This document shows, in pieces, positions 1,070 to 47,689 of a DNA stretch of 64,000 nt (positions are counted from its first letter, which is position 1; every line of letters starts with the position of its first letter). The stretch comes from Beroe forskalii. Taxonomy: Eukaryota; Ctenophora; Nuda; Beroida; Beroidae. The stretch lies in contig WFMF01000085.1 of NCBI GenBank assembly GCA_011033025.1, forward strand, positions 248,001-312,000, given 5' to 3'. The position numbers and the translations under genes are program-made. A model generated the notes under the pieces. The model saw only the letters and a list, made by a program, of their open reading frames with translations. It had not been told where the DNA came from and did not search any database.

Positions 1070-15399
<14,330 letters not shown>

Positions 15400-15402
15400 A
15401 CC

Positions 15403-15537
15403 CCTGGAGTGTAACCCGGTCACTGGAGTGTGACCCGGCCACTGGAGTGTGACCCGGTCACTGGAGTGTGACCCGGCCACTGGAGTGTGACCCGGTCACT
15501 GGAGGAGGGGCACTAAGGTGTGACCCGGTCACTGGAG
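15403..15537 (+). repeat. 19-bp tandem repeat in SELENOO 3'UTR
   Basis: Six to seven copies of a unit with core CACTGGAGTGTGACCCGG start directly after the stop codon and end about 200 nt before the SECIS. Confidence 0.9.
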
Positions 15538-15737
15538 AAGGAGCACTCAGTGACCCTCTGCCATAGGACCATGTGCTTAGGAAATAGTTGCATGTGTCCC
15601 ATGGACCATGCACCTGTAGATGGCGTGCCTGGACTGCGTGTGCGAATACTCTCTATAGACTCTTTTAGACTTTAACTCTAAGTAGAGTTTACCTCCAGTT
15701 GATCGGGTTTCAGGGGTCAATGATGGAACTGTTGCTG

Positions 15738-15813
15738 GGATTATTCACTCTGCTATGACGACAATTTCCTAAACCGTCTTATGGAGGGACTTGTTTGATA
15801 TGATGAATAGTTC
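15738..15813 (+). promoter_or_regulatory. SECIS element (type II) in SELENOO 3'UTR
   Basis: Found by folding by eye. Helix I: 15738-15747 pairs with 15804-15813 (10 bp). Internal loop, then the non-Watson-Crick quartet TGAC (15756-15759, preceded by A) opposite TGAT (15796-15799). Helix II: 15760-15770 with 15785-15795, 11 positions with one U-C mismatch. Apical AAA at 15771-15773, then a 4-bp mini-stem CCGT/ATGG closing a CTT loop. This AUGA...AA...UGA layout with an extra apical stem is the eukaryotic type II SECIS that recruits SBP2/eEFSec. It lies about 365 nt after the Sec codon. Confidence 0.88.
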
Positions 15814-16075
15814 ACAGCACCTCAAGAAAATAAGAAAAACTTTTCCTTGTATTAAAAGGAAAAATCTTTTACAATCACAGGATGACGAATATTAGTTAAT
15901 TAAGTTTTTTTGTACAAGATTAAAAAGTTCAAGTTTGAAAGTATATAATTATTGTCTATCGATGATAACCCTTCACGCCATCAACGCAAACTCTAATCAA
16001 TTTTATTTAACAGTTTAATTAAAGTTAAGTGTATAATATTTTAGTATTTTGTAAAATTAGATCAAATAATAAGTA

Positions 16076-18255: not shown

Positions 18256-20828
18256 TCATATCAATACTAATAATAAAAATGTTCTTAACGCTGAGTTATA
18301 AGACCCAGCGATCTTTTCAACATGGAACTGACAGAGTTCATAATGCCACATGGTTTTCTCTTTGTTGAGACCCAATGGTCTCATGGTCATAAGCCTACTG
18401 ACCCATCGTTGCTCTGCAGTGTCAAGGTTTTTGGGACTGATCTCAAGGACAGTAAATGAATAATTACTGTTAAAGAGGTCAACAGAGTTGATGTTATGAG
18501 CCTCAAGCAAATGTTCTGCCAGTGTGGCCTCATCAGACTCATCATCAAAAAAGAATCACCTACATGTGACCTATGTCCAGATATCCTTGTTTGCAGTTTT
18601 GTTGTTGACTTACCTACATATTGTTTTTCACAAAGGAAACAACTTGCACAATACACAACATTCCGTGATTTACAATTTGCTGAAGGAGTTCTGTAAGTTT
18701 TTCCTGAAGCTGAGGATGTGATATCTGTATTATCTGACATAAGTACACAAGAGGCGCAAGGTCTACCACGTCTATGCGCTGATTTTAACAAGGGGTGCAT
18801 CTCTGAGTTCCCAACAGTTCAGACTCACATGTTAAAGCAAATTTCTTTCTTCTCAGAATGATATCACCTAAATTTTGGGCTCTTCTGCTAACAAGACCTA
18901 TCACCTTTTTTGGCCTTATCCCAAGCTGGGCTATCTGACAAGCACTGGTTAGCTTCTTTGACAATCTTTTTCAATTGGTTCGTGACTGGCCCAAAAGTTT
19001 GGATCCACAAGACTGGATTTGGAGTTGATTTGTTATCAGAGTTATACTCTAAGTATCTAGGTCTTTGTGCTACATCATCCAGAATATTATTGACCAGTTT
19101 TTTAGGGTAGCCTGATTTATAAAAACAATGTTTGAGATCATCCAGCCTTCTAAAGAGCTTAATAGGGTCATTGATAATTCTTTTATACCTAAGTCCTTGC
19201 GAATAGATTATTGATGGGAAAATTTGCCTGGGATGATAACTTGAATAATTAAGGTAAAGTTTAGCATCTGAAAGCTTAATATTGATATCTGAAGATACAT
19301 AACCATCTGTGGAGAAAGAAAACTTTATGTCTAAGAATGTTGTGAAATCTCCCACATTGCTAAAATCCCATTGGTCAACATCATTATCTTTGATTGACAA
19401 TCCAAAGACTTTCAATTTCATGTTCACAGAATCAGCCCAAGAGATGAAATCTTCCTTGCACCCTTTCCATAAGCCAGCCAGGTCATCAACAAACCTTTTC
19501 AGACCTACAAGGTCTGGAGGTAGATCATCAGAATCATAGATAACTAATTTCAAAACATAAAAAACAGCAATGTTGGCAAGTGACACAGATAGAGAGCCTC
19601 CTGTTGCTATTCCTGCTTTGTTCCTATACCACAGATCTCCATGTTTACCAAAACACGAAGAAAGGCTAAGATCAACCAAGCTCATGATCCAAGTAATGAA
19701 ATCATCTGACCAATCACAACGCAATTCTGAAATAGCAAACAATAAGGCTTCTTTGACCAGATCTGGAGTAAGGTTGTCATATAATGACACAAAATCCCAA
19801 GAGAAGCTCTTGAGGTTAGGAATCAACTGATTATCTACATGCTCCAGCCACTTTAAAGCCTCAGTGGTATCCCTTACTAGATCTTTACAAAAGTCATCCT
19901 GAAGAGGCTGTAAATACTTAAAGTTGAGAAACTTATCTGACCGTGATGTTGGCCCTTGGCTCAAATCGTTGACCAACCTCAAAGGAATAGGAAAATCTTG
20001 TGAAAGATTGCAAGGATCCACTTTATGTATTTTTAGTAGCCCATAATAATATGGGATACCTGGCTTGAAGGCACTTAAAGTACTAGGCCTGCCACTATTA
20101 CAGAGTCCTACCACACTATAGCAGATATCACGAGTGATGAAATTCAAAGTCTCACCATGATGCCAAAGTTCAAGCAAATTACTTGTTACATCTGGTACAG
20201 GGTCTTTAGTTCCAAGGCACTCAAACTGATTGGAATCACTGAGTTTTTCTACTTCCAGCTTTCTCATACATGATCTTTTGATAATACATATGGCTCCACC
20301 TTTGTCGGCCTTGACAAACTGAGTATCACCTTTTTTCACTGTATCTTTGAGCCATAGTAGGCCAGCCCTTTCTACTCTGCTGAGGTTGGATTTAGGAGGA
20401 GAAAAGTCTAAATGTTCAATACAGTTCAAAATATCTTCACACAGACTGTCAACCAGTGGGTCTGTGCTACTTGATGGGGTACAAATGTATGGTAATCTTA
20501 AGCTACTAGGTAGTTCTAATTCATTAGTTTCATCTGTGTCATCTTCATCTAAGGGTTCAAGGGAAGTGGATATCTCTAGATCTAGATTCTTTAAATTGTA
20601 CTTTGTCTGTCTACATAGTTTGGCCATAGCCAAATTTGTGTCAACTTTGGTTTGGAGCTTATTAGAAGAAGTAGTAGGAACAAAACCAATCCTTTTTGCC
20701 AGCACAATAATTGCCTCAGGTGGTATGGTTTCTTCTGTTAAGTTGACAACTGATCCACTGTCAAGGGCTGCTTTGGCACGTTTCAATATGCGATTAATAA
20801 ATTCATGACAATGCATGGTCTCGATCAA
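18256..20828 (-). mobile_element. Penelope-like element, copy 1 (RT + GIY-YIG), frameshifted
   Basis: The long frame 20828-18888 (646 aa) is a PLE reverse transcriptase: SWDFVSLYDNLTPDLV, then GIATGGSLSVSLANIAVFY and the catalytic RFVDDLAGLW. Downstream in other frames come SRRAQNLGDIILRRKKF (about 18900-18830), a Cys-rich linker, and a GIY-YIG nuclease with VVYCASCFLCEKQYVGKS (near 18650), HRSH and a C-terminal part ending near 18290. At least two or three frame breaks separate RT and nuclease (around 18895, 18805 and in a T-run near 18545). EN-containing PLEs use the GIY-YIG nuclease to prime reverse transcription (family knowledge). Nearly identical to the fragment at 38252-39762. Probably inactive as it stands. 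Confidence 0.92.
18888..20828 (-). CDS. PLE reverse transcriptase ORF (646 aa)
   Basis: Open frame of copy 1 with the N-terminal extension (starts MIETMHCHEF), an acidic linker around residues 95-120, and the RT domain from about residue 170 to 570. The active-site aspartates are in FVDD. It ends in SDSPAWDKAKKGDRSC, where a +1 slip departs from the conserved continuation; the intact family protein would run on into the GIY-YIG domain. No intron seen. The start Met is the first in the frame and is not independently supported. Confidence 0.85.
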   Translation of the reverse strand: MIETMHCHEFINRILKRAKAALDSGSVVNLTEETIPPEAIIVLAKRIGFVPTTSSNKLQTKVDTNLAMAKLCRQTKYNLKNLDLEISTSLEPLDEDDTDETNELELPSSLRLPYICTPSSSTDPLVDSLCEDILNCIEHLDFSPPKSNLSRVERAGLLWLKDTVKKGDTQFVKADKGGAICIIKRSCMRKLEVEKLSDSNQFECLGTKDPVPDVTSNLLELWHHGETLNFITRDICYSVVGLCNSGRPSTLSAFKPGIPYYYGLLKIHKVDPCNLSQDFPIPLRLVNDLSQGPTSRSDKFLNFKYLQPLQDDFCKDLVRDTTEALKWLEHVDNQLIPNLKSFSWDFVSLYDNLTPDLVKEALLFAISELRCDWSDDFITWIMSLVDLSLSSCFGKHGDLWYRNKAGIATGGSLSVSLANIAVFYVLKLVIYDSDDLPPDLVGLKRFVDDLAGLWKGCKEDFISWADSVNMKLKVFGLSIKDNDVDQWDFSNVGDFTTFLDIKFSFSTDGYVSSDINIKLSDAKLYLNYSSYHPRQIFPSIIYSQGLRYKRIINDPIKLFRRLDDLKHCFYKSGYPKKLVNNILDDVAQRPRYLEYNSDNKSTPNPVLWIQTFGPVTNQLKKIVKEANQCLSDSPAWDKAKKGDRSC

Positions 20829-22800
20829 GTCTGCTGTAAAATATAAATTATGTTGTTTTATTTAAATTATGTTGTTTATTTTATTCAACCTGCAACCAAA
20901 TGCAATATTCCTGGGCGTCGAAATTTGTAATTTTAATTTTTATGATCAACTGTGCAAATTTGATGGCTATAAATAGTAGCCAAGATTGAAGATTTGTAGA
21001 TTTGTGTTTCATAAATTCTTGAGATACCGGGACAAATTTTAATCTCTAACTTTCCTCAGCGAAATTGCTAAGGACAATCATCATTGATTGAACTCGATTG
21101 CTCATCGTCAATTATTGTCTCCTGTTTAAAGACAAATGTTAATTTGAATAAATTTCAATCATAAGACAACATTTGATGGAGAGTTCCCAGAAAATCGAAA
21201 GACATTCATGCACCTCTTATTGTTGAAAAAGTTTGATGAAATTGAAGAATGATTAAGATTCAAATAAAGGAATCAATTTCCAAGTTTCAACATTAGGATG
21301 AACAGAGCATTGAACCCGAATAACTGTAAGCTAGCTGCAGTGCACACTGTACAGGATGCCACTACAACGAGCTATATTGGCGCGAGTGATATTATGAAGG
21401 AGCAGTTGGATGCTTGATAATGATCGAAAAAGTGACATTATACCCCTCCCAAGCCTGTTTTAGTGACTGTGTCAGTTTGGTTATAGGGTCTTCGCTGAAT
21501 TACAGTGCAAAAAAGCTTAAAATGAAATTTAATTTTATAAAGGAGCACTCAAAAATTTACTTAAGCGTTGAATCCGGACAAGGGTCGTCAGACCCAAGTG
21601 GGAAGAAATATGGTTGTTTGTCAGAGAATAATATAGGGCCCAGCTATTTCTGGTCCGGTTCCATGATCTCAGCTGTGACAGTATACCTTCGATAATGAAC
21701 TCGGCACGCCTCATCCATTATCCAACTTACACTGTCTCGGCTGTCGCCTTGACTATGTAAGTTGCAGTATATGGTCACCACTTCGACATGTAACCGCTTA
21801 CTATTTTTTTTATTTATTTATTTTTTTTAATTTATTAAATTTGGTCGTGCGCAGCACCACCACCCATTTCACATTTAACAGTACTCGTAAAGGTAGTATT
21901 CACCCAATCCCCTTCAAAACACGATCTCTGCTAATATGAACAGTTTTGGACCAAAAGTGCTGTGGGCATATTTTGACCATTTCACTCATAAAACCATTTG
22001 TGAATGTCCAATCCATACCAAAATTTCCATGGATACAGTTGGTGACATTATGAAGCATCTATGAAAATTTGAAGCATTTTCATCCTTAACCATTTTCCCA
22101 CAAACTGAGTGATTTAGTGGCTTTTTGAAGGTTTTATTATGGGCTAAAATGGCCACAAGGTCCGATTCACAAAATATAATAAATTAGTTTTTGTTTGAAG
22201 CTCATATCTCCAAAGCTCATATCTCCAAAAATGTGGCCATAATGGCCAACTTCAGGCCCAAAATAGGTCGACTGCCACTTTGGCCATTTTCCATCTGATT
22301 TCGATAATCAAATACAGTAATACTGTATAATACACTAAAATGATCAGCTCGAATGCAACCAACAGCTAAGCTCTATCTCCTTCCAATCAAATTTCAATCT
22401 TGTCCTTCAAAAGGGAAAATCCCATCTGTGGCAGATTTCTTAATCCCCTTCGGTTTTGAGGTTGCTTGGTGTGCAGTGATGAACAAGTGATTTGGGGTCT
22501 GGGGGTCTCTAAAGTGGCATCCTACCTTCCTCTCAATCCTAGCATTACTGAATACTTCCTCGCCTTACTTCCCCTCACCTAACTCCCTCACCAAACTTCT
22601 CTGACCATAGGTTCAACATTGCCCATGTAAGGCCTTGGAGCAAAAATGGCATCAAAGAATCAAATTTTCGATTCTTGGATGCCATTTTTGCTCCATGGCC
22701 TTACCTGGCCATCTCATATCTCAAATTCATGTTTTCCTATATATGACATGTGACAACCCCCTCCGCCCTAACCTTCAATCACTTGAGTTGAACATCAAAT
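20829..22800. other. No supported gene; AT-rich with a short hairpin
   Basis: Contains a T-rich run (21800-21840), a duplicated CTCATATCTCCAAA (about 22200-22230) and the hairpin at 22628-22703. A 93-residue plus-strand frame at 21414-21695 shows no recognisable domain, and I leave it out as a gene. Confidence 0.5.
22628..22703. repeat. Near-perfect hairpin, 26-bp arms
   Basis: 22628-22653 pairs with 22678-22703 with one mismatch (core GGAGCAAAAATGGCATC). The 24-nt spacer itself contains AGAATC/GATTCT and would extend the stem. Possibly a MITE core, or a source of small RNA if transcribed. Confidence 0.75.
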
Positions 22801-22960: not shown

Positions 22961-23164
22961 ATTAATATGCAAAATTAGGTCTTTGACAAGTGAGAATTAG
23001 CTCAATGAAATTCATTCCCCCTCCCCTTGTCCCCCACTTTTTGTGAAAGTGAGTACCTAATGGCATGCTAAAAACCCTAATAAGACCTTAGCCAAGAACC
23101 CTAACCTTAACTTAGGAGCATTAGATAACAATAGGATTAACTTCAACATTGTGCAGTGTCAGGT

Positions 23165-24680
23165 ATGAGTATGGGGATGAAACAGGATAGTCTGATTGCT
23201 TGCAATATCTTCATCATTATTGGATTAATTTTGTCTCATTGGGCATTTAATAACTTAATTGACTATCAATATGTTGGAACATCAACTCTTGAATCAATAA
23301 CTGGTTCAAATATCACCTTTACTCGATCAGAACATCTGACACTCATTGGCTCTGGAGGTGATAATATTCATGATTTATACAAAGGACTTGGTTGGATGCA
23401 TGCTAAAGACAGGTATGTTCAGCTTTGCCTCATGAGGCTAGCATCCCAAGGGCGTCTAACAGAAGTGTTCCCCTTTGATGAAATGAATATGAAGTTTGAC
23501 CTCCTTGCCAAACAATTTGATTTCTATGACAAAAAGCAAGTTGCACATAAAAAACATATCATCCTGATGGTGTTGCAATTCAAATCCTTTCTGCTTACAC
23601 AGAAGGAATTAACCACTTCATGGAAAAGAATAATCGGCCATTGGAATTTGTTATAACAAACTATCATCCTGAACCATTTAAGCCTTCTGACATAATAGCA
23701 TTCATGGCATTTGTTTCATTTGTTGGTTTGAATGAAATAAGTCTAGGCATAGAGAAAACAGTATTGGAGTTCATTCATTCTGAGGGCTTCTCTACTCCTT
23801 TTTTTTTTTTTAAAAGAAATGTTTCATCCTCATCTTAATAACTTTGACAAATGATTACATTGATATCTACAAGAACATCAAGCACCTGAAATCTAATGAT
23901 GGACTGAAATCTGCTTTTAAAATTATCAATCACAAACAGCAACAACTGGGTAGTATCAGGTAAATGATTATCTTATTGCTTTAATAGAATTTTATTTTAT
24001 TTTTTACAACAATATAGCAAATATAAATAAATCTGAGATAATGTGATGCCATAAGTAGTTGCTAGTGTGATTTAGTTTCTCCCAGATACTATAACCTGAT
24101 AATATGAAATAATGAAGTTTATGTTGCAGGTGCTCTTTCAAGTAGTGGGATGCCAATCATGAGTGTAGACCCTCATCTGGATGTTTCCAAAACTCCCAAT
24201 ACTTTTTATGAGTCAACTCACATGATGGATGATGGCAGAACTGTATTTGGAATTTCAGTTCCAGGTGAGTAACAATAAAAATCAATAAAAATGTAGTTAC
24301 TAAGTTCGATGTGGTCTCATGCTCTATCATAAAGCTCATGATGATTGAAATGAATTCATTGCATGTATAAGTATTCATAGATCATTAAATTTAAAATATC
24401 AAATCTTCTCAGGCATACCTGTTCTCATGATGGGGAGAAATAAAGATGTTTCATTTACTTTGACATATGGCATGATGGACATGGCTGATTATTTTCTTGA
24501 GAATATTACAAGTGGAAACTATGAACGATGGCCAGCTCCTTCCACTGAAACAAAAGAGAATATTGTTGCTGGAAGGAAAACACTTTTATGAAACCAATGA
24601 AGGGCACATCATAGAACGATATACAGACCATTATGATAGTCTCATTTCTCATGCTTTGCAATAGATTTAGATAACGATGA
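23165..24680 (+). pseudogene. Penicillin-acylase-family amidase, intron-containing and frameshifted
   Basis: Ntn-hydrolase family member (PF01804-type). ATG at 23165, a hydrophobic N-terminal segment (about residues 10-30; signal anchor), then DLYKGLGWMHAKDRYVQLC and SQGRLTEVFPF, the family's N-terminal signature. After a frame break near 23572 come AYTEGINHFMEKNNRPLEF and YHPEPFKPSDI. Further breaks lie in a T-run at 23803-23815 and near 23855. A donor follows GGTAGTATCAG (about 23960). The next exon 24130-24264 encodes SSGMPIMSVDPHL and ends in G|GTGAGT. The third exon starts at 24413 (GIPVLMMGRNKDVSF) and shifts frame near 24570. I do not find the SN-W-type start of the beta chain with its nucleophile Ser. 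Breaks may be real decay or sequencing indels in homopolymers. Confidence 0.8.
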
Positions 24681-25008: not shown

Positions 25009-25422
25009 CACACGAAAAAAAAATCGATCCAATGGACGAAATATAGGCAATTTAGTGTAGATGGATTTCACCCATCCCTAGCGCGCAACACTCGGAAATT
25101 TGGAGGGTCGTGTTGCAGAAAAAAGGCGCGCGGCGGAGGGTAGGGTAAAATCCTACTAATTTAGTGAAAATTTACAAAATTTGGCGTCAATTTTGGCCAT
25201 ATCTTTCCTTATAAGCCAAATTTTAAAATTCCATCTGACTATTGGAAGCTCCTTTGTGTTTTATAGCACATAGTGAAAAATTTGTGTTTCACTTTTTCTT
25301 GCAAATTCATGCTAGTACTTTGTGCGCAAGTACGTGTTGTGGCACCCCTAAATAAAGAAAAGGCACTGTCACTTAATAACAAACACTTATATACAGAAAA
25401 TTAAAAACTGGGTAGACAAGAT

Positions 25423-28325
25423 GCAGGAAAGTGGGTAATACAATCCAAGAGAGCACAATTGACCAAATATTCTTGTCAGAAGAGTCACTCTCCAATGATT
25501 TTAAAGTCGTGCCTCCTCTTGGCAAGAGTGATCATGTTTCAATGATAGTTGATCTAAATGTCATTAACATTGAGCAAGTTCACTCTAATGAAACTGATGA
25601 TGTGAGAAGGAACTGGTCAAAAATGGATTTAAAGGATATTTTAGATCTCTCGAGTAACATTGATTGGCATTTTCCAAAAAGTCCAGAGTTGATGAATGTT
25701 GAAGAGATGTGGGAGGATATACACAGTAAATTGCTGAAAATTACTGATTCAATTCCTGAAAGTTTTGATCAACACTCTGGAAGCAATGATCAGAAAAGTA
25801 TTCCATGGTTAAATTCTTCTCTGAAGCGTGCTATCAGATCAAAAAATAAGCTTTGGGGGATTTTTAATGCAAGCCCCACTATGGAAAACCTTAATGCAGC
25901 CCTCATGAAGCAGGGTGAGTTAGATGCAGTTGAATTGAAGGCTAAACTTAAATATGAGAAACTGATAACAAATGATCTGAAGCATAACTCTAAGGCTTTT
26001 TATTCATATCTGCGATCAAGAAGAAATGTCAAGTCACTTGTAACAGTTTTGAAAAAAACTGATGGATCACTGACATCAAATGACAAAGAAACTGCTGAAT
26101 GCTTTGCTGATGGCTTTAGTTCTGTGTTTACAAATGAACCATTTGGCCCACTGCCCGAATCTTGTTACAAAATACCTGACAAGATCATTTCTGATGTTAG
26201 CATTTCTGAAGAAGATGTGATTAATGAATTGAAGTCTTTGAATATATTCAAAAGCTCAGGACCAGATAATATACACCCAAAGCTGCTGAAAGCCCTTGCT
26301 GGAAACCCTGATTTTGTGAAGAGCCTTACAAGGCTTTATAAGAACTGTATTAGAGAGCAGAAAATTCCTAAATTATGGAAAGTTGCCAGTGTCATAAGTC
26401 TACACAAGAAAGATGCCAAGACAGATCCTCTCAACTACAGACCTGTATCATTAACATGCATTCTTTGTAAAATTTATGAGAAATTCATTAGGAATCATGT
26501 CTTAGAATTTGTTAGAGATGATATAAGTGAACACCAACATGGCTTTATGGACAACAAATCATGTTTATCAAATTTATTGGAGACTGTTGATGCCATAATT
26601 GAACTTTTAGACTCAGGGTATCCTGTAGATTTGTTTTATTTTGACTTTTGCAAAGCTTTTGACACAGTTCCTCACCACAGGCTTCTCACAAAGTTAGAAA
26701 ATTATGGCATCAAAGGCTCAACCTTGTCCATTTTGAGAGATTTTCTTAGTGACCGTTCATTACGTACTTGTGTTAGGGGAAATTATTCATCTTTTAGGAA
26801 AGTACTCTCTGGTGTGCCACAGGGCTCAGTTTTGGGTCCCTTGTTATTTATACTGTATATCAATGACCTTCCTGATGGTATCAATAATCTCACTAAGTTA
26901 TTTGCAGATGACATGAAGCTAATTGTGAATGCTACTAGTAATAACAAAAACACTGTTAACAGTGACCTTAGATCACTTGAAAACTGGGAATCTTTGTGGC
27001 TTCTTAGGTTTAATCCTGAAAAATGTAAAGTCATGCACTTTGATTATAATCAGAATCCTATGAATGAATATAAAATCGATGCAGTTATTTTAAATAGTGT
27101 ACAATCTGAAAAAGATCTTGGTGTTGTTGTGAATAATCAATTGAAATGGAATGACAACATAAACTCTTGTATTAAAGATGCTAACAGAATGATTGCTTGG
27201 GTAACTAGAAACATGCTTAATCGTGATTCCTATATTTTAACACGTATTTATAAGACTATAATAAGACCAGAGTTAGAGTATTGTGTTCAAATCTGGAATA
27301 TGAGTAATTGCCATGGTAATTGGTCAACAATTTTAGAATTGGAATCTATACAGCGTAGATTTACACGGCTAGTCAATGATATTGGACTATTACCTTATAG
27401 TGAGCGTTTGAAGAAACTTAATCTGACAACTTTAGGTGAACGGAGATTAAGAGGTGATCTTATTGAGACTTATAAAATCTTAAATGATAAAGTTCAATAT
27501 GGTGAAAATTTGTTTAGACTTAGTAGGTCAAGAAAGAACATTTTGCATAGTAGTGCTCAATCTAATGATCCTGATATTTGTAAATTAAGGGCACATTTTC
27601 TACCTGAAAGAGTATGCAATTACTGGAATAAGTTACCTAACTATGTTAAGTCCTCTAATGATGTCAATTCATTTAAGAATAATTTGGAAGTTTTTAAGAA
27701 TGAATGTTTGCATGAGAATGATAATAATTATTGGCATGTTTCAAAACTTATATTAGACAAGATTGAAGGAAAAGGTTATCTAGAAAACAAATCAAAGTTT
27801 AATAACTATTTGATGCAAAATAAGTTCATTGCAAATAGGAAAGGTATTAACACCTATGTCAGACCAAGTAGTATTGAATAGTGAGCAGGTGTTTTTAATT
27901 GTTTATTGACAGTAGTTTTTATTGACAGTAGTTTTATTTATTTATGATAAAATCAGTTTCGTTATTTTTACTGGTTTTGCTTATGGTTTTTGCTTATTAT
28001 TTTAGATTCTAACTATGTCCATCAGTTATTTATTCTGTCAATTATTTATTAATCATAACCTATTACATCGTTAATTCAAGCAGGCTCAATTAACCTTTTA
28101 AACCATATTTATTCATCTTTAATTATATTTTTCTATTTCTGACTTTGGATTGGGGTGCCTTGTGAAGGTATGTAATGGTAGTGAAGGATTCAGATTGCCG
28201 GATTTTATTCTATTTTGGACACCTTGGAAATAAGGTGTGGAAACGAAGGATGAAGTTTAGTAGCTAATTTTATAGAATGAATCGTGTTATTTATTAGTAA
28301 AATTGTTATATTATATTATTATTAG
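25423..28325 (+). mobile_element. 5'-truncated non-LTR retrotransposon (LINE)
   Basis: Inserted in the left arm of the inverted repeat. The right arm gives the empty site (about 32950), and AAGAT is duplicated at 25418-25422 and 28326-28330. The 3' end is a short (ATT)n tail. It holds one 816-aa frame, described separately. 5' truncation is the usual outcome of target-primed reverse transcription. Confidence 0.9.
25431..27881 (+). CDS. LINE ORF2: endonuclease remnant plus reverse transcriptase (816 aa)
   Basis: The first ~45 residues are the C-terminal end of an APE-type endonuclease (TIDQIF, then GKSDHVSMIVDL with the catalytic Asp-His). The RT domain follows at about residues 290-610: NYRPVSLTCILCKIYEKF, FDFCKAFDTVPH, SGVPQGSVLGPLL and the catalytic FADD. 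The C terminus has the CR1/Jockey-type LGVVVNNQLKW and WNKLPNYV segments. The whole 816-residue frame is uninterrupted, which suggests a young insertion, although the missing 5' part makes it non-autonomous. The exact clade (CR1 versus Jockey group) needs a tree. Confidence 0.88.
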   Translation: MGNTIQESTIDQIFLSEESLSNDFKVVPPLGKSDHVSMIVDLNVINIEQVHSNETDDVRRNWSKMDLKDILDLSSNIDWHFPKSPELMNVEEMWEDIHSKLLKITDSIPESFDQHSGSNDQKSIPWLNSSLKRAIRSKNKLWGIFNASPTMENLNAALMKQGELDAVELKAKLKYEKLITNDLKHNSKAFYSYLRSRRNVKSLVTVLKKTDGSLTSNDKETAECFADGFSSVFTNEPFGPLPESCYKIPDKIISDVSISEEDVINELKSLNIFKSSGPDNIHPKLLKALAGNPDFVKSLTRLYKNCIREQKIPKLWKVASVISLHKKDAKTDPLNYRPVSLTCILCKIYEKFIRNHVLEFVRDDISEHQHGFMDNKSCLSNLLETVDAIIELLDSGYPVDLFYFDFCKAFDTVPHHRLLTKLENYGIKGSTLSILRDFLSDRSLRTCVRGNYSSFRKVLSGVPQGSVLGPLLFILYINDLPDGINNLTKLFADDMKLIVNATSNNKNTVNSDLRSLENWESLWLLRFNPEKCKVMHFDYNQNPMNEYKIDAVILNSVQSEKDLGVVVNNQLKWNDNINSCIKDANRMIAWVTRNMLNRDSYILTRIYKTIIRPELEYCVQIWNMSNCHGNWSTILELESIQRRFTRLVNDIGLLPYSERLKKLNLTTLGERRLRGDLIETYKILNDKVQYGENLFRLSRSRKNILHSSAQSNDPDICKLRAHFLPERVCNYWNKLPNYVKSSNDVNSFKNNLEVFKNECLHENDNNYWHVSKLILDKIEGKGYLENKSKFNNYLMQNKFIANRKGINTYVRPSSIE

Positions 28326-38251: not shown

Positions 38252-39762
38252 AAACGGATTGGTTTTGTTCCTACTACTACTTCTAATAAGCTCCAAACCA
38301 AAGTTGACACAAATTTGGCTATGGCCAAACTATGTAGACAGACAAAGTACAATTTAAAGAATCTAGATCTAGAGATATCCACTTCCCTTGAACCCTTAGA
38401 TGAAGATGACACAGATGAAACTAATGAATTAGAACTACCTAGTAGCCAAGATTACCATACATTTGTACCCCATCAAGTGCTTTAGACCCACTGGTTGACA
38501 GTCTGTGTGAAGATATTTTGAACTGTATTGAACATTTAGACTTTTCTCCTCCCAAATCCAACCTCAGCAGAGTAGAAAGGGCTGGCCTACTATGGCTCAA
38601 AGATACAGTGAAAAAAGGTGATACTCAGTTTGTCAAGGCCGACAAAGGTGGAGCCATATGTATTATCAAAAGATCATGTATGAGAAAGCTGGAAGTAGAA
38701 AAACTCAGTGATTCCAATCAGTTTGAATGCCTTGGAACTAAAGACCCTGTACCAGATGTAACAAGTAATTTGCTTGAACTTTGGCACCATGGCGAGACTT
38801 TGAATTTCATCACTCGTGATATCTGCTATAGTGTGGTAGGACTCTGTAATAGTGGCAGGCCTAATTACTTTAAGTGCCTTCAAGCCAGGTATCCCATATT
38901 TATTATGGGCTACTAAAAATACAAAAAAGTGGATCTGCAATCTTTCACAAGATTGTCCTATTCCTTTGAGGTTGAACCAACGATTTGAGCCAAGGGGCCA
39001 ACATCACGGTCAGATAAGTATCTCAACTTTAAGTATTTACAGCCTCTTCAGGATGACTTTTGTAAAAGATCTAGTAAGGGATACCACTGAGGCTTTAAAG
39101 TGGCTGGAGCATGTAGATAATCAGTTGATTCCTAACCTCAAGAGCTTCTCTTGGGATTTTGTGTCATTATATGACAACCTTACTCCAGATCTGGTCAAAG
39201 AAGCCTTATTGTTTGCTATTTCAGAATTGCGTTGTGATTGGTCAGATGATTTCATTACTTGGATCATGAGCTTGGTTGATCTTAGCCTTTCTTCGTGTTT
39301 TGGTAAACATGGAGATCTGTGGTATAGGAACAAAGCAGGAATAGCAACAGGAGGCTCTCTATCTGTGTCACTGGCCAACATTGCTGTTTTTTATGTTTTT
39401 GAAAAATTAGTTATCTATGATTCTGATGATCTACCTCCAGACCTTGTAGGTCTGAAAAGGTTTGTTGATGACCTGGCTGGCTTATGGAAAGGGTGCAAGG
39501 AAGATTTCATCTCTTGGGCTGATGTTGTGAACATGAAATTGAAAGTCTTTGGATTGTCAATCAAAGATAATGATGTTGACCAATGGGATTTTAGCAATGT
39601 GGGGGAGTTCACAACATTCTTAGACATAAAGTTTTCTTTCTCCACAGATGGTCATGTATCTTCAGATATCAATATTAAGCTTTCAGATGCTAAACTTTAC
39701 CTTAATTATTCAAGTTATCATCCCAGACAAATTTTCCCATCAATAATCTATTCGCAAGGACT
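38252..39762 (+). mobile_element. Penelope-like element, copy 2 (RT fragment)
   Basis: Corresponds to the RT part of copy 1 (20700-19190) with few substitutions but several indels: frames at 38168-38485, 38518-38916 and 38852-39817. It includes GIATGGSLSVSLANIAVFY and RFVDDLAGLW. It is cut off at 39762, where an L2-like LINE tail begins, so the GIY-YIG part is lost. The 65 bases before 38252 match neither neighbour. Confidence 0.9.
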
Positions 39763-40433
39763 TAATAATAATAATAATTTAAACTTATTAATTATAGTGG
39801 CACATCAACTTAATTAATTGCACAGCTGTGCCACGAAAACATTAGAAACAAAAACTTCTATGACAGTGCACCCAAACACAAAGTAAACAGATGAAATAAG
39901 TTAATCAGAATAAATAAAAGAAGCCTAAGCTGAGCTTATGCTTAAATTCAACTTTAAAATAAATAAGCACTGTCTGATGGTCAAAGCAATATATACAGAA
40001 AATTAAAGCATGTAAGTTATGTAATATTAAAAGCTTGTTTAAATAAATACGTTTTCAGAGCAGATTTAAAAATGTCAATTGATGAACAACTTTTTAATTC
40101 TAAGGGAAGGCTATTCCACAATTTTGGCCCTGATTTCTCAAAAGCACGCTCACCAAAATGAGTCAGAACTCTAGGCTCATGTAAAAAGATAGAGTGATTG
40201 AAATCTGCATATTTAAACATTGATTTTAAATAGTCAGGTCCATATCCATTTAAACATTTGTATACAATCAATAGAATCTTGAATTCAATACGATATTTGA
40301 TAGGAAGCCAGTGAAGGTCTTTCAGAGTATCACCCAGATGATCGTGCTTATAAAGTCCCACAATAGCCTTTGCAGCTGCATTTTGAATCAATTGCAGTTG
40401 GTTAACTAAGTGGTCACTAATGGAAAAATACAT
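39763..40433 (-). mobile_element. L2/CR1-like LINE 3' fragment
   Basis: Minus-strand frame 40433-40017 encodes the very C-terminal part of an LINE RT protein: LVNQLQLIQNAAAKAIVG, LHWLPIKYRIEFKILLIVYK, KLWNSLPLELKS. 3'UTR follows to an (ATT)n tail at 39763-39778. All RT catalytic motifs are missing (5' truncation). Confidence 0.85.
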
Positions 40434-40738: not shown

Positions 40739-42340
40739 ATGGACACATCTACTCCTTGTCCCAACTGTGAATCTCTCCGTGATCAATGTATTGCACTTAA
40801 ATCAGAAGTTCAAACACTAACTGTTAAGTTGGATACTTTACTTGAACACTTTCACAAAGAAAAAGTAGAAATGAGTACACAAACAGATTTTACATTAACT
40901 GATCATGATCATAGTGAAATGAAGCCTTCACAATGTACACAAACTGACAACACTGTAGAAGAGGTTGATTCATCTGATTTACTTTTTGACATTTATTGTA
41001 ATGCTAATGATACCCTTCCAAACTCATCATCAACACAGGTTGATCTCAGTCCACTCAAAGATAGCATGAATCCATTTATGCCCTTTCTTGCACTACCTGG
41101 TCAACCTTTTGCACATATCTCACTGACTGCTCTAGATCAGGAAACCAGCTATATGAAGTTGCACAGCAATAGGTCAACATGCTTATATAGCCCATATCCC
41201 TATAAGTATAGTGGCAAGATTCATCCAGCTAGTCCCCTCCCTGAAGCTGGTAGTCAAATCAGCATCATATTGGATCAGCTCTGTAAAAACTACCCAAGCC
41301 TAGAGTTCAATAGTGTACTGGTAACTAAGTATGAGAATGGGAATGATAGTTTAGGTTACCACTCTGACAACGAACCAGAGATAATAGATGGATCATTCAT
41401 AACCACTATCACACTAGGTCAATCCAGAAATGTTCTATTCAGGAAAATAGGTGACTCAGAATTTAGTACTATCTTGACCCCAAATCATGGTGAACTGTTT
41501 GTGATGAGTAAGGCATCCCAATCCTTATTTGAGCATAGTATCCCCATGGACACAACCAGTGAACCACGGATAAGTATAACCTGCAGACTGTTAATGCCCC
41601 CTGTAAGTCAAATACCTTCAGGTTACAATGAGCATTCTGGTCACGCAAGTACTACCCCTCTTAATCAGTTAGAGCCATCCACAGCAAGCAATCCTCCAAC
41701 ACCTTCCACTAATCAAAGTCAAGAGGATGTGCTATATATCAGTTCAAGCATGTTTAGAGGTATTAATGAGGCCAAAATGTCCTCAAGGTATCAGACAGCC
41801 CATGTTCTGTTCTATCCTGGTGCTAGTGCAAAGGACATCTTAAACAGAATCAGACACGATGAAAAATTCCTCCAGATCTCCTCAAGAAGTGTCACAAAAA
41901 TTTTCTTACTCTGTGGGACTAACAATGTGGACAAAGTTCTCAATATTCATAAAAGTGATCAAAATAATCAAGTTTATAACTTTTCAGTATCACATGACAT
42001 CCTTAATGAAACAAAACAGGATATTGTCAGCCTTTTAGACTTTTTACACAGTTGGTCATCTGGTGCTATGATTAACATCCTGAATGTCCTTCCTAGGACA
42101 AGTTTGTGTCGTAACCAAGTTATCAATGAACTCAATAAGCATATCTATAGTCTAGATCAGGGACGTGCCCATGTGACCATGTTGCGGTCAGAATATCATC
42201 GCAGCCTATATAGTACCAAAACTGGTTTTAGGAAAAATGATTTCTTTAGTAGTAATGGAAATGACAATGTCCACCTTAATAGATTGGGGGTAATTAGACT
42301 TGGAAAATTCATGAAGTACATAGCTCATCAGGGTAGATAG
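40739..42340 (+). CDS. LINE ORF1: coiled coil + AlkB-like 2OG-Fe(II) dioxygenase + SGNH esterase (533 aa)
   Basis: Residues 1-75 start with CPNC and a heptad-like stretch (probable coiled coil), then an acidic linker. Residues about 115-290 are an AlkB-type dioxygenase: NSVLVTKYENGNDSLGYHSDN supplies the HxD iron ligands (H208, D210), LFEHS the second His (H266), and RISITCR the R-x5-R (R277, R283) that binds 2-oxoglutarate. The form resembles the AlkB domains of plant RNA-virus replicases. Residues about 325-520 are an SGNH hydrolase: ISSSMF (nucleophile Ser near 336), FYPGAS, CGTNN (Gly 393, Asn 395) and DNVHLN (D509, H512). Esterase ORF1s are known in CR1/L2 elements; the AlkB part is the unusual one. 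The frame is fully open. It precedes ORF2 by 181 nt. Confidence 0.88.
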   Translation: MDTSTPCPNCESLRDQCIALKSEVQTLTVKLDTLLEHFHKEKVEMSTQTDFTLTDHDHSEMKPSQCTQTDNTVEEVDSSDLLFDIYCNANDTLPNSSSTQVDLSPLKDSMNPFMPFLALPGQPFAHISLTALDQETSYMKLHSNRSTCLYSPYPYKYSGKIHPASPLPEAGSQISIILDQLCKNYPSLEFNSVLVTKYENGNDSLGYHSDNEPEIIDGSFITTITLGQSRNVLFRKIGDSEFSTILTPNHGELFVMSKASQSLFEHSIPMDTTSEPRISITCRLLMPPVSQIPSGYNEHSGHASTTPLNQLEPSTASNPPTPSTNQSQEDVLYISSSMFRGINEAKMSSRYQTAHVLFYPGASAKDILNRIRHDEKFLQISSRSVTKIFLLCGTNNVDKVLNIHKSDQNNQVYNFSVSHDILNETKQDIVSLLDFLHSWSSGAMINILNVLPRTSLCRNQVINELNKHIYSLDQGRAHVTMLRSEYHRSLYSTKTGFRKNDFFSSNGNDNVHLNRLGVIRLGKFMKYIAHQGR

Positions 42341-42521: not shown

Positions 42522-45399
42522 ATGTCAAATATTCACAATTTGACTGTAGGCCATTGCAACATTCAGGGTGGCTTAACTGGCATCTCTAAAACTCTCCAAA
42601 TTTCTGAAATGATCAAAAAATATGAAATGGACATTTTATCCTTGAATGAAACCAATCTTAATGATAGTATTGCAACAAATACACTTAACATCCCTGCTAA
42701 CTACACTTTCTTACGTAATGATAGAGGTACTGGTTCCAGAGGTGGTTGTGGACTTATAATCAGTAACAAAGTAGCAGGTTAAAAGTAGTAACTATTACAT
42801 TTGTGGCTTCTATCGTTCAAGTGGCTATTGTAAATTAGATGACTTCATAGATTATTTCACAGAATGCATGATTAAGCTTAGAGGTAAAAAAGTTATCTGG
42901 ATTGGTGACATTAATGTCGACCAGAACAAAATAAATGATTTAGACTATAGGAAACTTGACTCTGCACTTAAGTCTTTTAATATGGTTCAAACAATCCAAA
43001 ACTATACTAGAGTAGCTAAAAGGGGCAATAAGTTTACTTATAGTACCATTGATGTCATAATAACAAACTGCTATTCAGATTTCGAATCCTCATCAGTTCT
43101 CCCAGAACAGGTAGGTGATCATTTCAGCCTAAAGTGTGTACTACAATTTAAAGTAGAACTACCCCCTAAATTTGAGAAAATATCGTTTCATAATTATAGT
43201 AGTAGCAACATAAAAGCCTTCCAAACATATCTAGCTAATGTTAATTTAGAGCCACTTTTCGAATGCAACGAAGTTGACACTGCTGTCTCAATGTTAGAAA
43301 CTCACCTTAATAAGTACCACGACCACTTCTTCCCCCTAAAAACTATTAAAAAGCATGAAAGCTTTATCTATAAACCATCTCAGGAAAGTTTAGTAGCCAT
43401 CAGGGCCAAGAAGAAACTTCACAGAAAATTTAAAGTAAGTCTGAAAAAAGTTACTGAATCTAACTGTGGAAATTGCAATGTTTGCAATAAATGCATCAAT
43501 GCACACTTGGCATGGGATGAGTACAGAAAACAGCGTAATCTTTCTAACAAAGTAACCAAAAACAACAAACGTGAAAATCTTCTTAATGATCTTAAATCAA
43601 AAAGTGCCAAAAATGATCTTAAGGGTATATGGAAATCTTTGAAAATTGCCACAAATACACCAGCAAAAACTAACACTCAGCCAAAAGTAGATGAAAATAA
43701 TATAACAGCTGAAATAATGAACAAACACTTTTGTGAAGTGGGGCCAAATTTAAATGCTAAAGTGCCTGTTTATAAAGATATTAGTTATAGAGACTTCCTC
43801 ACTAATACTACTAATTCCACTTTAGAAAATTTTACTGAAGCTTCTAGTGACTCAATTAAAACATATATTTTGTCTCTGTCTTCAAACAAAGCTATAACTG
43901 ATCAGTTACCATTAAGAGTTATTAAATCCATTTTGCCGTTCATAATTCATAGTATAACACACATAGTTAATCTCAGCCTATCAACTGGCCACTTTCCAGA
44001 ATCTTGTAAGCAAGCAGTTGTGTCACCAATCTTCAAAAGTGGAGATAGCAATGACCCTAACGACTACAGGCCAATTTCTATTCTACCAATAATATCAAAA
44101 TGTATAGAATTCTGTGCTAATGGACAGCTTACTGAATATTTTGAGAGTAATAAGCTTTTAAGTAATCACCAATATGGATTTCGGAAAAACTATTCTACAA
44201 CTTATCTAACTCTTGATATGTTTGATAGGATATTTGATAACAAGTCAAAAGGCAACACTCCAGCTTTAATTTTCCTAGATATCAAGAAGGCTTTTGATAC
44301 AGTTGATCACCAAATACTGATTGATAAACTGAAATTCTATGGAGTAGATGGAACTGTCATCCTGTGGATTAAGAATTATCTGACAAACAGAAAACAGGCT
44401 ACTAAATTTTTAGGTAAAGAAAGCAAATTTCTTAGTATAAAGTTCGGGGTCCCACAGGGCAGCTTACTAGGTCCACTTTTATTTAGTATCTACATAAATG
44501 ATCTTGTGAATGCATGCAACTTATCTCATCCATACCTATTTGCAGATGATGGAGCTCTTCTATTTGATAATATATGTCGTAATACTTACTTAAGCATAAG
44601 AATAGAAATGTTAACTATTATAAAGTGGTTGAGTGTAAATAAGTTATCACTAAACATAGACAAAACAAAAATCCTGGTATTTGATAAAGCCAACTTTTCT
44701 GTAAAGATAAAACTGAGTGAAAATCTAGCTATCAAAGAATGTAAGAGTTTTAAATACTTAGGACTAATAGTAGATAGCCATTTAAAATTTGATACTCATA
44801 TTGACTATATAAAGAAAAAGATCCAGAAAAGAATAGGTGCTATGTATAGGGGAAGTAGTTTGCTGCCCATAAAATATAGGAAAATGTTTGCCAACTCTTT
44901 GATCTTGCCCCATTTTGATTATCTTGATACCATATATGGTCGAGCTTCTAAAACTAAACTTCACGAATTAGATATCTTGTACAAAAAAGTTGCAAAAATA
45001 GCTCTAGGTGTCAAAAAAACTGAAAGTAGTATAAATGTATATAGAGACATGAAATGGCTACCTCTTCACCTGAGACGTCAGGTCCACTTATCCTCTTATA
45101 TGTTTAAAATATTAAATGGGCACAGCCCATCTAACTTTATCAATAAATTTAGTTACATCTCTGGAGGAAGCAGGGATGGGGCAAATTGTAATCTATACAC
45201 CCCTAAATCTAAAAATCTAAAAAACTTCTATTACTTAGGTGCTAAAGCATGGAACAATACACCACAAAGTTTAAGAACTGCAACTGATCCTAAAATATTT
45301 GGTAAAAATTACAAAACTATACTTCTGGATTCAGTAACAAATGACCCAAGCTATGTTGTAAATAATGCATTTGATCATATCTATAAAGCTAAAGCTTAA
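42522..45399 (+). pseudogene. LINE ORF2: APE endonuclease + reverse transcriptase, one internal lesion
   Basis: 42522-42782 is the start of an APE endonuclease (HCNIQGG, LSLNETN, GCGLIIS) and ends in a stop. The second frame resumes at about 42790 with YYICGFYRSSG and continues to 45399: WIGDINVDQN, YSTIDVIITN, VGDHFSLKC. The gap between the two is far shorter than the family needs, so some 30-40 residues were deleted with a frame change. The RT is intact: NDYRPISILPIISKCIEF, FLDIKKAFDTVDHQ, GVPQGSLLGPLL, catalytic FADD (44539-44550). It ends in the CR1-type WLPLHLRRQVHL and AWNNTPQSL segments. A Cys-rich CGNCNVCNKC lies between endonuclease and RT. Not active unless the lesion is a sequencing error. 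Confidence 0.9.
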
Positions 45400-46033: not shown

Positions 46034-46176
46034 TACAGAGTTGGAGAAAACTTTCCCCTAACCAGGGGTTTTTGGAGCAAGGCACTGCGCGCGTGTAAAA
46101 CTAGGGATCTGGTTAGAGCAAGATAAAACTCTTGCAGATTGATGTCTTGAGTAAGATTTCTTTTTAATTCAAAAAT
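46034..46176 (+). mobile_element. SINE-like 3' fragment interrupted by a family B MITE
   Basis: AGAGTTGGAGAAAA (to 46052) and CTTGCAGATTGATGTCTTGA (from 46131) are adjacent in the intact copy at 35275-35315. The 70 bp between them are the MITE at 46053-46122. Confidence 0.75.
46053..46122. mobile_element. Foldback MITE family B, copy 1
   Basis: Ends TTCCCCTAACCAGG and CTGGTTAGAGCAAG. Flanked by AGAAAACT (46045-46052) and ATAAAACT (46123-46130), an 8-bp duplication with one change; the uninterrupted SINE copy shows the empty site. Confidence 0.78.
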
Positions 46177-46341
46177 GTTAACATGTGCAATATAAGTTGT
46201 ACATTGGGCTCACAATTAGAAGTGTGATTAATTAATAGATTATATTTCCCATCCCTAGTGCACAACACTCGGATTGACAAATATACCATACATATTACAT
46301 AAAATTTATGTATTGACATTGCTGCGAAACATGAGTACACG

Positions 46342-46412
46342 TTCCCCTAACCAGGCTTGCCGCGCCGCGCACTCCGTGCGCGAAACCAGGGCGCTGGTTA
46401 GGGCAGGGCAAG
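46342..46412. mobile_element. Foldback MITE family B, copy 2
   Basis: 71 bp, TTCCCCTAACCAGG to CTGGTTAGGGCAGGGCAAG, with a CGCGCACTCCGTGCGCG hairpin inside. AGTACACG is repeated exactly at 46334-46341 and 46413-46420. Confidence 0.85.
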
Positions 46413-46437
46413 AGTACACGTATATAGCTTTGTTTGG

Positions 46438-46531
46438 CTTCCTAAGCTCGCATAATTGTGTGTGTGCGCGGTGCTTCCCTTCTGGGGAAGCGCACAGCGC
46501 AACGCAAACAGGGATATACGTGTTTAGCAAG
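46438..46531. mobile_element. Foldback MITE family C, inverted copy
   Basis: From CTTCCTAAGCTCGCATAA to GGGATATACGTGTTTAGCAA, with inner GCTTCCC...GGGGAAGC stem. No flanking duplication seen. Confidence 0.75.
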
Positions 46532-46804
46532 TACGATGCATGATGGTTAAGCAACTGTTTGGCTCGCCCGACTTGCTTAACTTCCTCCAGCTCCGCAGTA
46601 CGCACAGTAGGGCCAGGGAAGCGTGCGCGCGGCGCGTACACACACACACCTATGCCGTGACCCTTAGCTAAAACTTAAATAGTTTAAAGAACGAAATTTT
46701 AATAAATACTATAACCCTTTTACTGTAGAAAATTTGATCCATTTTCATAATTGCTAAATTTTCGATTGTTGGTCCTATGAATATGATGTCCTGCAATCAG
46801 GAGC

Positions 46805-46888
46805 TGCCCTAACCAGGGCCCTGGTTACGCGCACGGAGTGCGCGGCGCGGCAGGCGCTAAACGTTTCGCGACGCCCCTGGTTAGGGGA
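46805..46888. mobile_element. Foldback MITE family B, copy 3
   Basis: Starts TGCCCTAACCAGGGCCCTGG, where AACCAGGGCCCTGGTT is a perfect 16-bp palindrome, and ends CCCCTGGTTAGGGGAA. A truncated left half recurs at 47375-47410. Confidence 0.75.
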
Positions 46889-47089
46889 AAACCACACTAA
46901 TAAAGTGCTTCGATCTTAAAGTGCGCGCAAATTACGTGATGCCGTTCTTAAGTGTACTAAGGTATGACCTACTGACGCCACTACGCCAGCCGTTAAAATC
47001 GGCCAAAAATTGATTACGAAATAAGTGAATGATCCCTTGCACACATGTCTGCAGATTGCTCAATTGCTTAATTTATTAATTTTTTTCCC

Positions 47090-47245
47090 TCCCCATTGTC
47101 TTTTTGTAAAACAAAAAGGCAAATAGGAGGGTTTGCAGAGATTGTGGTTTGGGAAGGTGAGAAATAGGATATGTCTATATGAGGTCCAGGTTTACAGTAC
47201 AACTGTAATTTCTGGAAAGTGCTCGGATTACTCCTTAATAATATG
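47090..47245. repeat. Dispersed repeat, inverted copy of 9070-9310
   Basis: Shares ATCGTGGTTTGGGAAGGTGAG-like and AGGTCCAGGTTTACAGT blocks with the reverse complement of the copy in SELENOO intron 3. Bases 47246-47680 contain the family B half element and nothing else I can name. Confidence 0.55.
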
Positions 47246-47689
47246 TGTCACGAAAATGTCCCCTCTCCTTCCAGCATCCATCCGTTCTTCTGGTGTCCGT
47301 CCTTCTGGTGCACAGCAGTGGAGCAATATTTATACTCCTACTGCAAACGACTGTGTTGTATCATGATGCAAAGGTTGCCCTAACCAGGGCCCTGGTTACG
47401 CGCACGGAGTTACATCAAGCACCGTGGGGGAGGGAAATTAAGTGCCTGCATACGGGAACTATGGTGAAACAAGAATTGTGCTGGCAGGCGCAATTCTTGT
47501 TTCAATTGACAGAGGGCTCAATAAACAAAATTGTGTGCCTTTGATAGGATGCATTTAGAAAGGGGACATTGAAAAGGAATCCTGCATGTCTTTTTCCAGC
47601 CCTCCAGTAATGGGTTTATCCTCACATATATCCACTCGCGTGCGCTTTTTGAAGACATTTTAGGTAGCGGGCTAGGGAACTCTGTTATG

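Follow-up and report, generated by a model that had tools for sequence, protein, structure and literature searches.

The window, a stretch of 64,000 nucleotides from a Beroe forskalii contig, carries on its forward strand a partially degraded copy from a LINE family in which the first open reading frame (ORF1) joins an AlkB dioxygenase to an SGNH esterase. ORF1 is a single open frame of 533 aa (40739..42340) in which an N-terminal helix is followed by a disordered stretch, the AlkB domain, a linker and the SGNH domain. In the AlphaFold model the N-terminus forms one long helix (residues 8-44, 40760..40870; pLDDT 94 over residues 11-30), which lies beside a CxxC motif at residue 7 and is presumably a coiled coil. 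The AlkB 2OG-Fe(II) dioxygenase domain spans residues 101-290 (41039..41608) and the SGNH hydrolase (esterase) domain residues 326-533 (41714..42337). ORF2 follows on the same strand in two parts, the first part of an APE-type endonuclease (42522..42779) and, in a different frame, the rest of the endonuclease with the reverse transcriptase (RT; 42775..45399; RVT_1, E = 2.3e-32).

In a Pfam profile search, ORF1 matched PF13532 with 63.9 bits against a curated cut-off of 31.2, and its predicted structure contains an AlkB fold. The HxD...H iron triad (H208, D210, H266) and the RxxxxxR arginines (R277, R283) are both present; by analogy with the AlkB family, these residues would be the iron and 2-oxoglutarate ligands. 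The predicted structure also contains an SGNH fold, and the catalytic residues of SGNH hydrolases are complete, with Ser (S337), Gly (G361), Asn (N395) and Asp/His (D509, H512). Curated SGNH profiles left the window protein unmatched up to E = 1, and PF13472 matched 4 of its 85 relatives. An earlier sequence-only reading of this DNA had proposed the fusion, listed the same AlkB ligands and named profile search and structure prediction as checks; the fusion and the ligands are confirmed, and both checks found AlkB. Its SGNH assignments held for N395 and D509/H512, but the nucleophile is Ser337 rather than a residue at about 336, and G361 had gone unnamed: in the wider alignment described below (A2), all 85 rows have Ser at position 337, whereas at 336 there are 69 rows with Ser and 16 with Asp.

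The APE-RT ORF2 anticipated downstream of ORF1 is likewise present but is not open in the window copy, where a frameshift inside the endonuclease leaves it no longer intact; Exo_endo_phos_2 matches at E = 0.0038 (17.5 bits, under its cut-off of 27.4). Uninterrupted ORF2 frames of 979-1004 aa occur in other copies (L011, L017, L018 and L020), and the 995-aa frame of L011 matches both PF03372 (1e-8) and PF00078 (7.9e-31), so that the family has the two ORFs, with endonuclease and RT domains in ORF2, that define a LINE. Element ends and target-site duplications were looked for around the window copy and not found, and Rfam gave no match in the window. Downstream of the element, a MITE-like inverted-repeat cluster surrounds CCCTAACCAGGG motifs (46044-47410).

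Elsewhere in the window, two frames with 82-85% mutual identity (18891-20861, reverse strand; 38840-39817, forward strand) might represent a divergent RT family, whether Penelope-like or another; RVT_1 matches the latter faintly (E = 0.033), and the latter also contains an FVDD motif, whereas the former shows neither. An 821-aa RT frame (25416-27881, forward strand; RVT_1, 1e-30) shares 26-36% identity with the RTs of the AlkB-bearing LINEs and, judged from its sequence, is of another RT lineage. The window also holds a penicillin-amidase-like fragment (23141-23653, forward strand; PF01804, 8.1e-10) and a 31-bp minisatellite of ~78 copies (12707-15125), to which most of the GC-rich stretch at 12001-16000 is probably due.

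With the window ORF1 as query, its own genome (216 Mb) yielded 83 matches, 16 of which (window included) span query residues 208-512 and thus both active sites; 14 of these 16 are free of stops. A protein search returned 85 relatives at E ≤ 1e-3, and 84 of them match the AlkB and SGNH profiles built from alignment A1, in which 54 of the 85 are themselves included; P0085 matches AlkB only. Across A1 (n = 65: the window, 10 loci and these 54 proteins, which are mainly the longer relatives), there is no variation at H208, D210, H266, R277, R283, S337, G361, N395, D509 and H512. Alignment A2 takes in the window and 84 of the 85 relatives, fragments included and P0083 omitted. There, H208 and D210 are conserved in 80 of 80 rows with a letter at these positions, H266, R277, R283 and S337 in 85/85, D509 and H512 in 81/81, G361 in 83/85 and N395 in 83/84. 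The five AlkB ligands are also invariant in all 125 ORF1s of a second LINE group, group B. Many copies carry the fusion, and they belong to no fewer than two LINE groups whose RTs are well separated. A host exon lying beside the element is ruled out by the genome-wide and protein-relative matches to ORF1, and a chance match to AlkB by fold, residue invariance and copy number. Mnemiopsis leidyi is annotated on 2 of the 85 protein relatives and on 2 of the 120 proteins listed in a second search. In P0041, a protein annotated as Mnemiopsis leidyi, an AlkB-SGNH ORF1 is seemingly followed by unrelated C-terminal sequence (residues 543-764), and this part has a single match in the window's genome, at a separate place (C314, 42%). 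Scanning viral contigs with P0041 as query gave no relative.

The association of AlkB with this ORF2 was examined using the ORF2 of L011 as query, which gave 51 matches among the best-scored candidates, 17 of them starting at query residue ≤40. Directly upstream of 12 of the 17 lies an ORF1 match with AlkB; in three (C324, C256 and C594) just the SGNH part is adjacent, and in two (C1 and C337) there is no ORF1 match within the ~2.5 kb examined upstream. The likeness of C1 and C337 to other copies ends at or shortly before ORF2, and from their sequences they look like 5'-truncated copies. An intact ORF1 lacking AlkB was seen at none of these 17 matches, which represent the best-scored candidates rather than a census.

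Selection was estimated by the Nei-Gojobori method on 15 ORF1s from the genome, including partial frames, which form 105 pairs; values were listed for the 25 closest. Ten pairs combine at least 62% identity with an AlkB dS of 0.57-2.85; drawn from nine copies, they are not independent. Their dN/dS is 0.07-0.14 for AlkB, similar to the 0.09-0.13 of SGNH, and 0.08-0.43 for the N-terminal part in the eight pairs that allowed a count. AlkB values are 0.21-0.41 in three very close pairs with few changes and 0.18-0.37 in more diverged pairs near saturation. The window copy has no value of its own, as its synonymous sites are saturated against the other copies. For the group B AlkB (five loci, ten pairs), dS is at least 2.07 or saturated, and the five finite dN/dS values are 0.06-0.22. 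These data show that the AlkB part of the sampled copies is under purifying selection. The sequence-only reading had suggested this comparison across copies, and the outcome that would have told against it, an AlkB segment found in the window copy only and under relaxed selection, is contradicted by the many copies and the low dN/dS. ORF1 diverges faster than ORF2: between the window and ten other copies, identity is 40-52% in AlkB and 80-88% in the RT, the L016 row (90%) being set aside because its RT piece apparently comes from a second, nested element. An ORF1 swap between L006 and L016 was considered and dropped, since L016 has two RT pieces and was taken to contain a nested element. Within group B, the N-terminal part of L026 and L027 has a dS of 0.56 and the AlkB part one of 2.07, a contrast that suggests a mosaic ORF1 formed through exchange.

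Among AlkB-family enzymes, ALKBH2 and ALKBH3 repair m1A and m3C, and ALKBH3 prefers single strands. Compared with solved structures, the A1 profile matched ALKBH3 (3.9e-28) and ALKBH2 (3.9e-24) ahead of E. coli AlkB (1.1e-6) and ALKBH5 (1.2e-3), so that by nearest sequence relationship the domain is not of the ALKBH5 (m6A eraser) type. The group B AlkB matched ALKBH2 (1.7e-21) and ALKBH3 (1.5e-19). Two candidate host genes (L033 and L034) have ALKBH3 as nearest relative, and two further AlkB domains matched ALKBH2 at 4.7e-5 and E. coli AlkB at 1.9e-4 (L031) or ALKBH2 at 0.001 (L032). Scored with the group A AlkB profile, seven group B rows reach 105-148 bits, the two candidate host genes 98-100, two Helitron rows 92-93, L032 89 and L031 77; the sequence evidence leans towards a shared origin of the group A and group B AlkB. 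Against this, the SGNH profile of group A gives just 6-18 bits for five of these seven group B rows and no match for the other two, values so low that the esterase halves must be far more diverged, and they do not demonstrate a single fused ancestor. A 35-row AlkB tree is weak at its base, with group A as one side of a branch at 56/86 and group B requiring three changes, and a 23-row tree without B_L025, P0183 and P0185 is likewise weak there.

The Helitron rows come from elements that bear the same two domains in the reverse order, SGNH-AlkB rather than AlkB-SGNH. At C847 (frames L030:3177-6500, L035:3-2753 and 2711-6220), a long frame of 2026 aa starts in L030 with SGNH (PF13472, 8.9e-8, 33.3 bits against 32.9) and then AlkB (PF13532, 1.7e-19), and runs on through a proline-rich stretch into L035 and a Helitron_like_N domain (2.2e-24); the next frame encodes a PIF1 helicase (2.6e-25). 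L029 at C225 likewise has SGNH before AlkB (PF13472, 4e-11; PF13532, 5.9e-22). Its AlkB is nearer ALKBH2 (3.6e-16) than ALKBH3 (3.9e-10), whereas the window protein is nearer ALKBH3. In a search narrowed by a length rule, none of 2044 candidates was related to the SGNH-AlkB part of the Helitron at E ≤ 0.001.

The sequence-only reading had suggested that the element may carry its own RNA/DNA demethylase, and this is supported by the ALKBH2/3-like AlkB, the invariant ligands and the purifying selection. What such an enzyme would act on is less settled; we give an even chance to the reading that it cleans the element's own template for reverse transcription. The ORF1 protein would multimerise on and coat the element's RNA, possibly the first-strand cDNA too, and the AlkB domain would oxidatively strip Watson-Crick-face N-methyl groups (m1A, m3C) on which the ORF2 reverse transcriptase would otherwise stall, cleaning the template before or during target-primed reverse transcription. 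Helitrons have single-stranded stages, and the recurrence of the two domains there counts for template repair. The esterase may retain the role proposed for other ORF1 esterases, particle contact with lipid or membrane; for the ORF1 esterase of zebrafish ZfL2-1, a lipid or particle role is put forward in passages of PMC3905857. A bolder version, which we think rather unlikely, is that AlkB and SGNH are a functional pair assembled more than once, in at least two LINE groups and a Helitron, as a template-care module whose esterase acts on nucleic acid or the particle, not on lipid; it draws on the passage of both kinds of element through single-stranded nucleic acid.

Unlikely, yet the strongest competitor to template cleaning, is that AlkB erases a host silencing mark, m6A on element RNA or 6mA on element DNA. 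An AlkB-type protein of orchid Ty3/Gypsy elements demethylates m6A in vitro according to its authors, who interpreted it as such an eraser but class it as ALKBH5-like (PMC9289625, in part), while here ALKBH5 falls more than 20 E-value orders behind ALKBH3 and ALKBH2. The faster divergence of ORF1 than of ORF2 is a possible outcome of host conflict, but quick evolution of this kind is not specific to it. ALKBH3-type enzymes also act on cellular RNA, and no finding here directly ties the enzyme to element RNA; it could work in trans on m1A/m3C of host RNA such as tRNA or mRNA and benefit the element by altering translation or stress signalling. Its fusion to the particle protein of the LINE, ORF1p, would instead suggest that it acts on the element's own RNA, and we regard work in trans as improbable. 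The AlkB fold might also serve as a non-catalytic single-strand nucleic-acid binding module in place of an RRM or zinc knuckle, filling a gap, since RepBase esterase-type ORF1s are described without an RRM or structural RNA-binding domain in parts of PMC3905857. We judge this very improbable, as binding alone should have allowed loss of the ligands, and their invariance in 65/65 and 125/125 ORF1s favours catalysis. A host ALKBH gene next to a transposon fragment, or a misassembly, can be practically discarded even though the genome holds candidate host genes of ALKBH3 type, because the uninterrupted frame recurs on many contigs of the genome and in other data sets.

Laboratories treat methylated RNA with AlkB to make it readable for reverse transcriptases. 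If the ORF1 AlkB is active and cleans the template, these LINEs would carry their own nucleic-acid demethylase beside the RT, mirroring that treatment. This would suggest that retrotransposition is held back by template methylation strongly enough to have driven the evolution of a remedy. The function of ORF1 proteins, still debated, could then be addressed directly with single catalytic mutants, and the parallel Helitron case would indicate that elements with single-stranded stages share this need more widely.

Esterase (Type IV) ORF1s are known from CR1/L2-type LINEs such as zebrafish ZfL2-1, and ORF1 variants with a zinc finger/leucine zipper or a PHD are known as well (passages of PMC3905857 and PMC4120745). 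Like the window family, where the coiled coil is presumed, these CR1/L2 elements have a coiled coil and then an SGNH esterase in ORF1, and an APE endonuclease and RT in ORF2; the window family differs in having AlkB between helix and esterase, and AlkB has no mention in the main text of either article. The esterase alone does not place the element in CR1, as RTEX and Penelope esterases are also listed (in part of PMC3905857). According to the sequence-only reading, such a fusion is not known to have been described for LINEs, and full-text searches of open-licence papers, judged by titles and abstract starts, gave no report of an AlkB domain in a LINE or a Helitron among the papers listed. The closest retroelement case is that of the Phalaenopsis Ty3/Gypsy elements, which, as far as the passages of PMC9289625 go, share with the window family a retrotransposon-borne AlkB-type demethylase (putative here) with conserved cofactor residues. 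There, however, an LTR element carries a separate ALKBH5-like ORF, whereas in the window the AlkB is nearest ALKBH2/3 and fused into the ORF1 of a LINE, and the genome is animal-like. Plant RNA viruses with AlkB (Alphaflexiviridae, Betaflexiviridae and Closteroviridae, for which repair of the RNA genome is proposed; cited in PMC9289625, in part) resemble the window family in that an element with a single-stranded RNA stage carries the domain, as part of a virus protein there and of a retroelement protein here. Human ALKBH3 and ALKBH2 are free-standing repair enzymes, whereas the window AlkB is one domain of a transposon protein.
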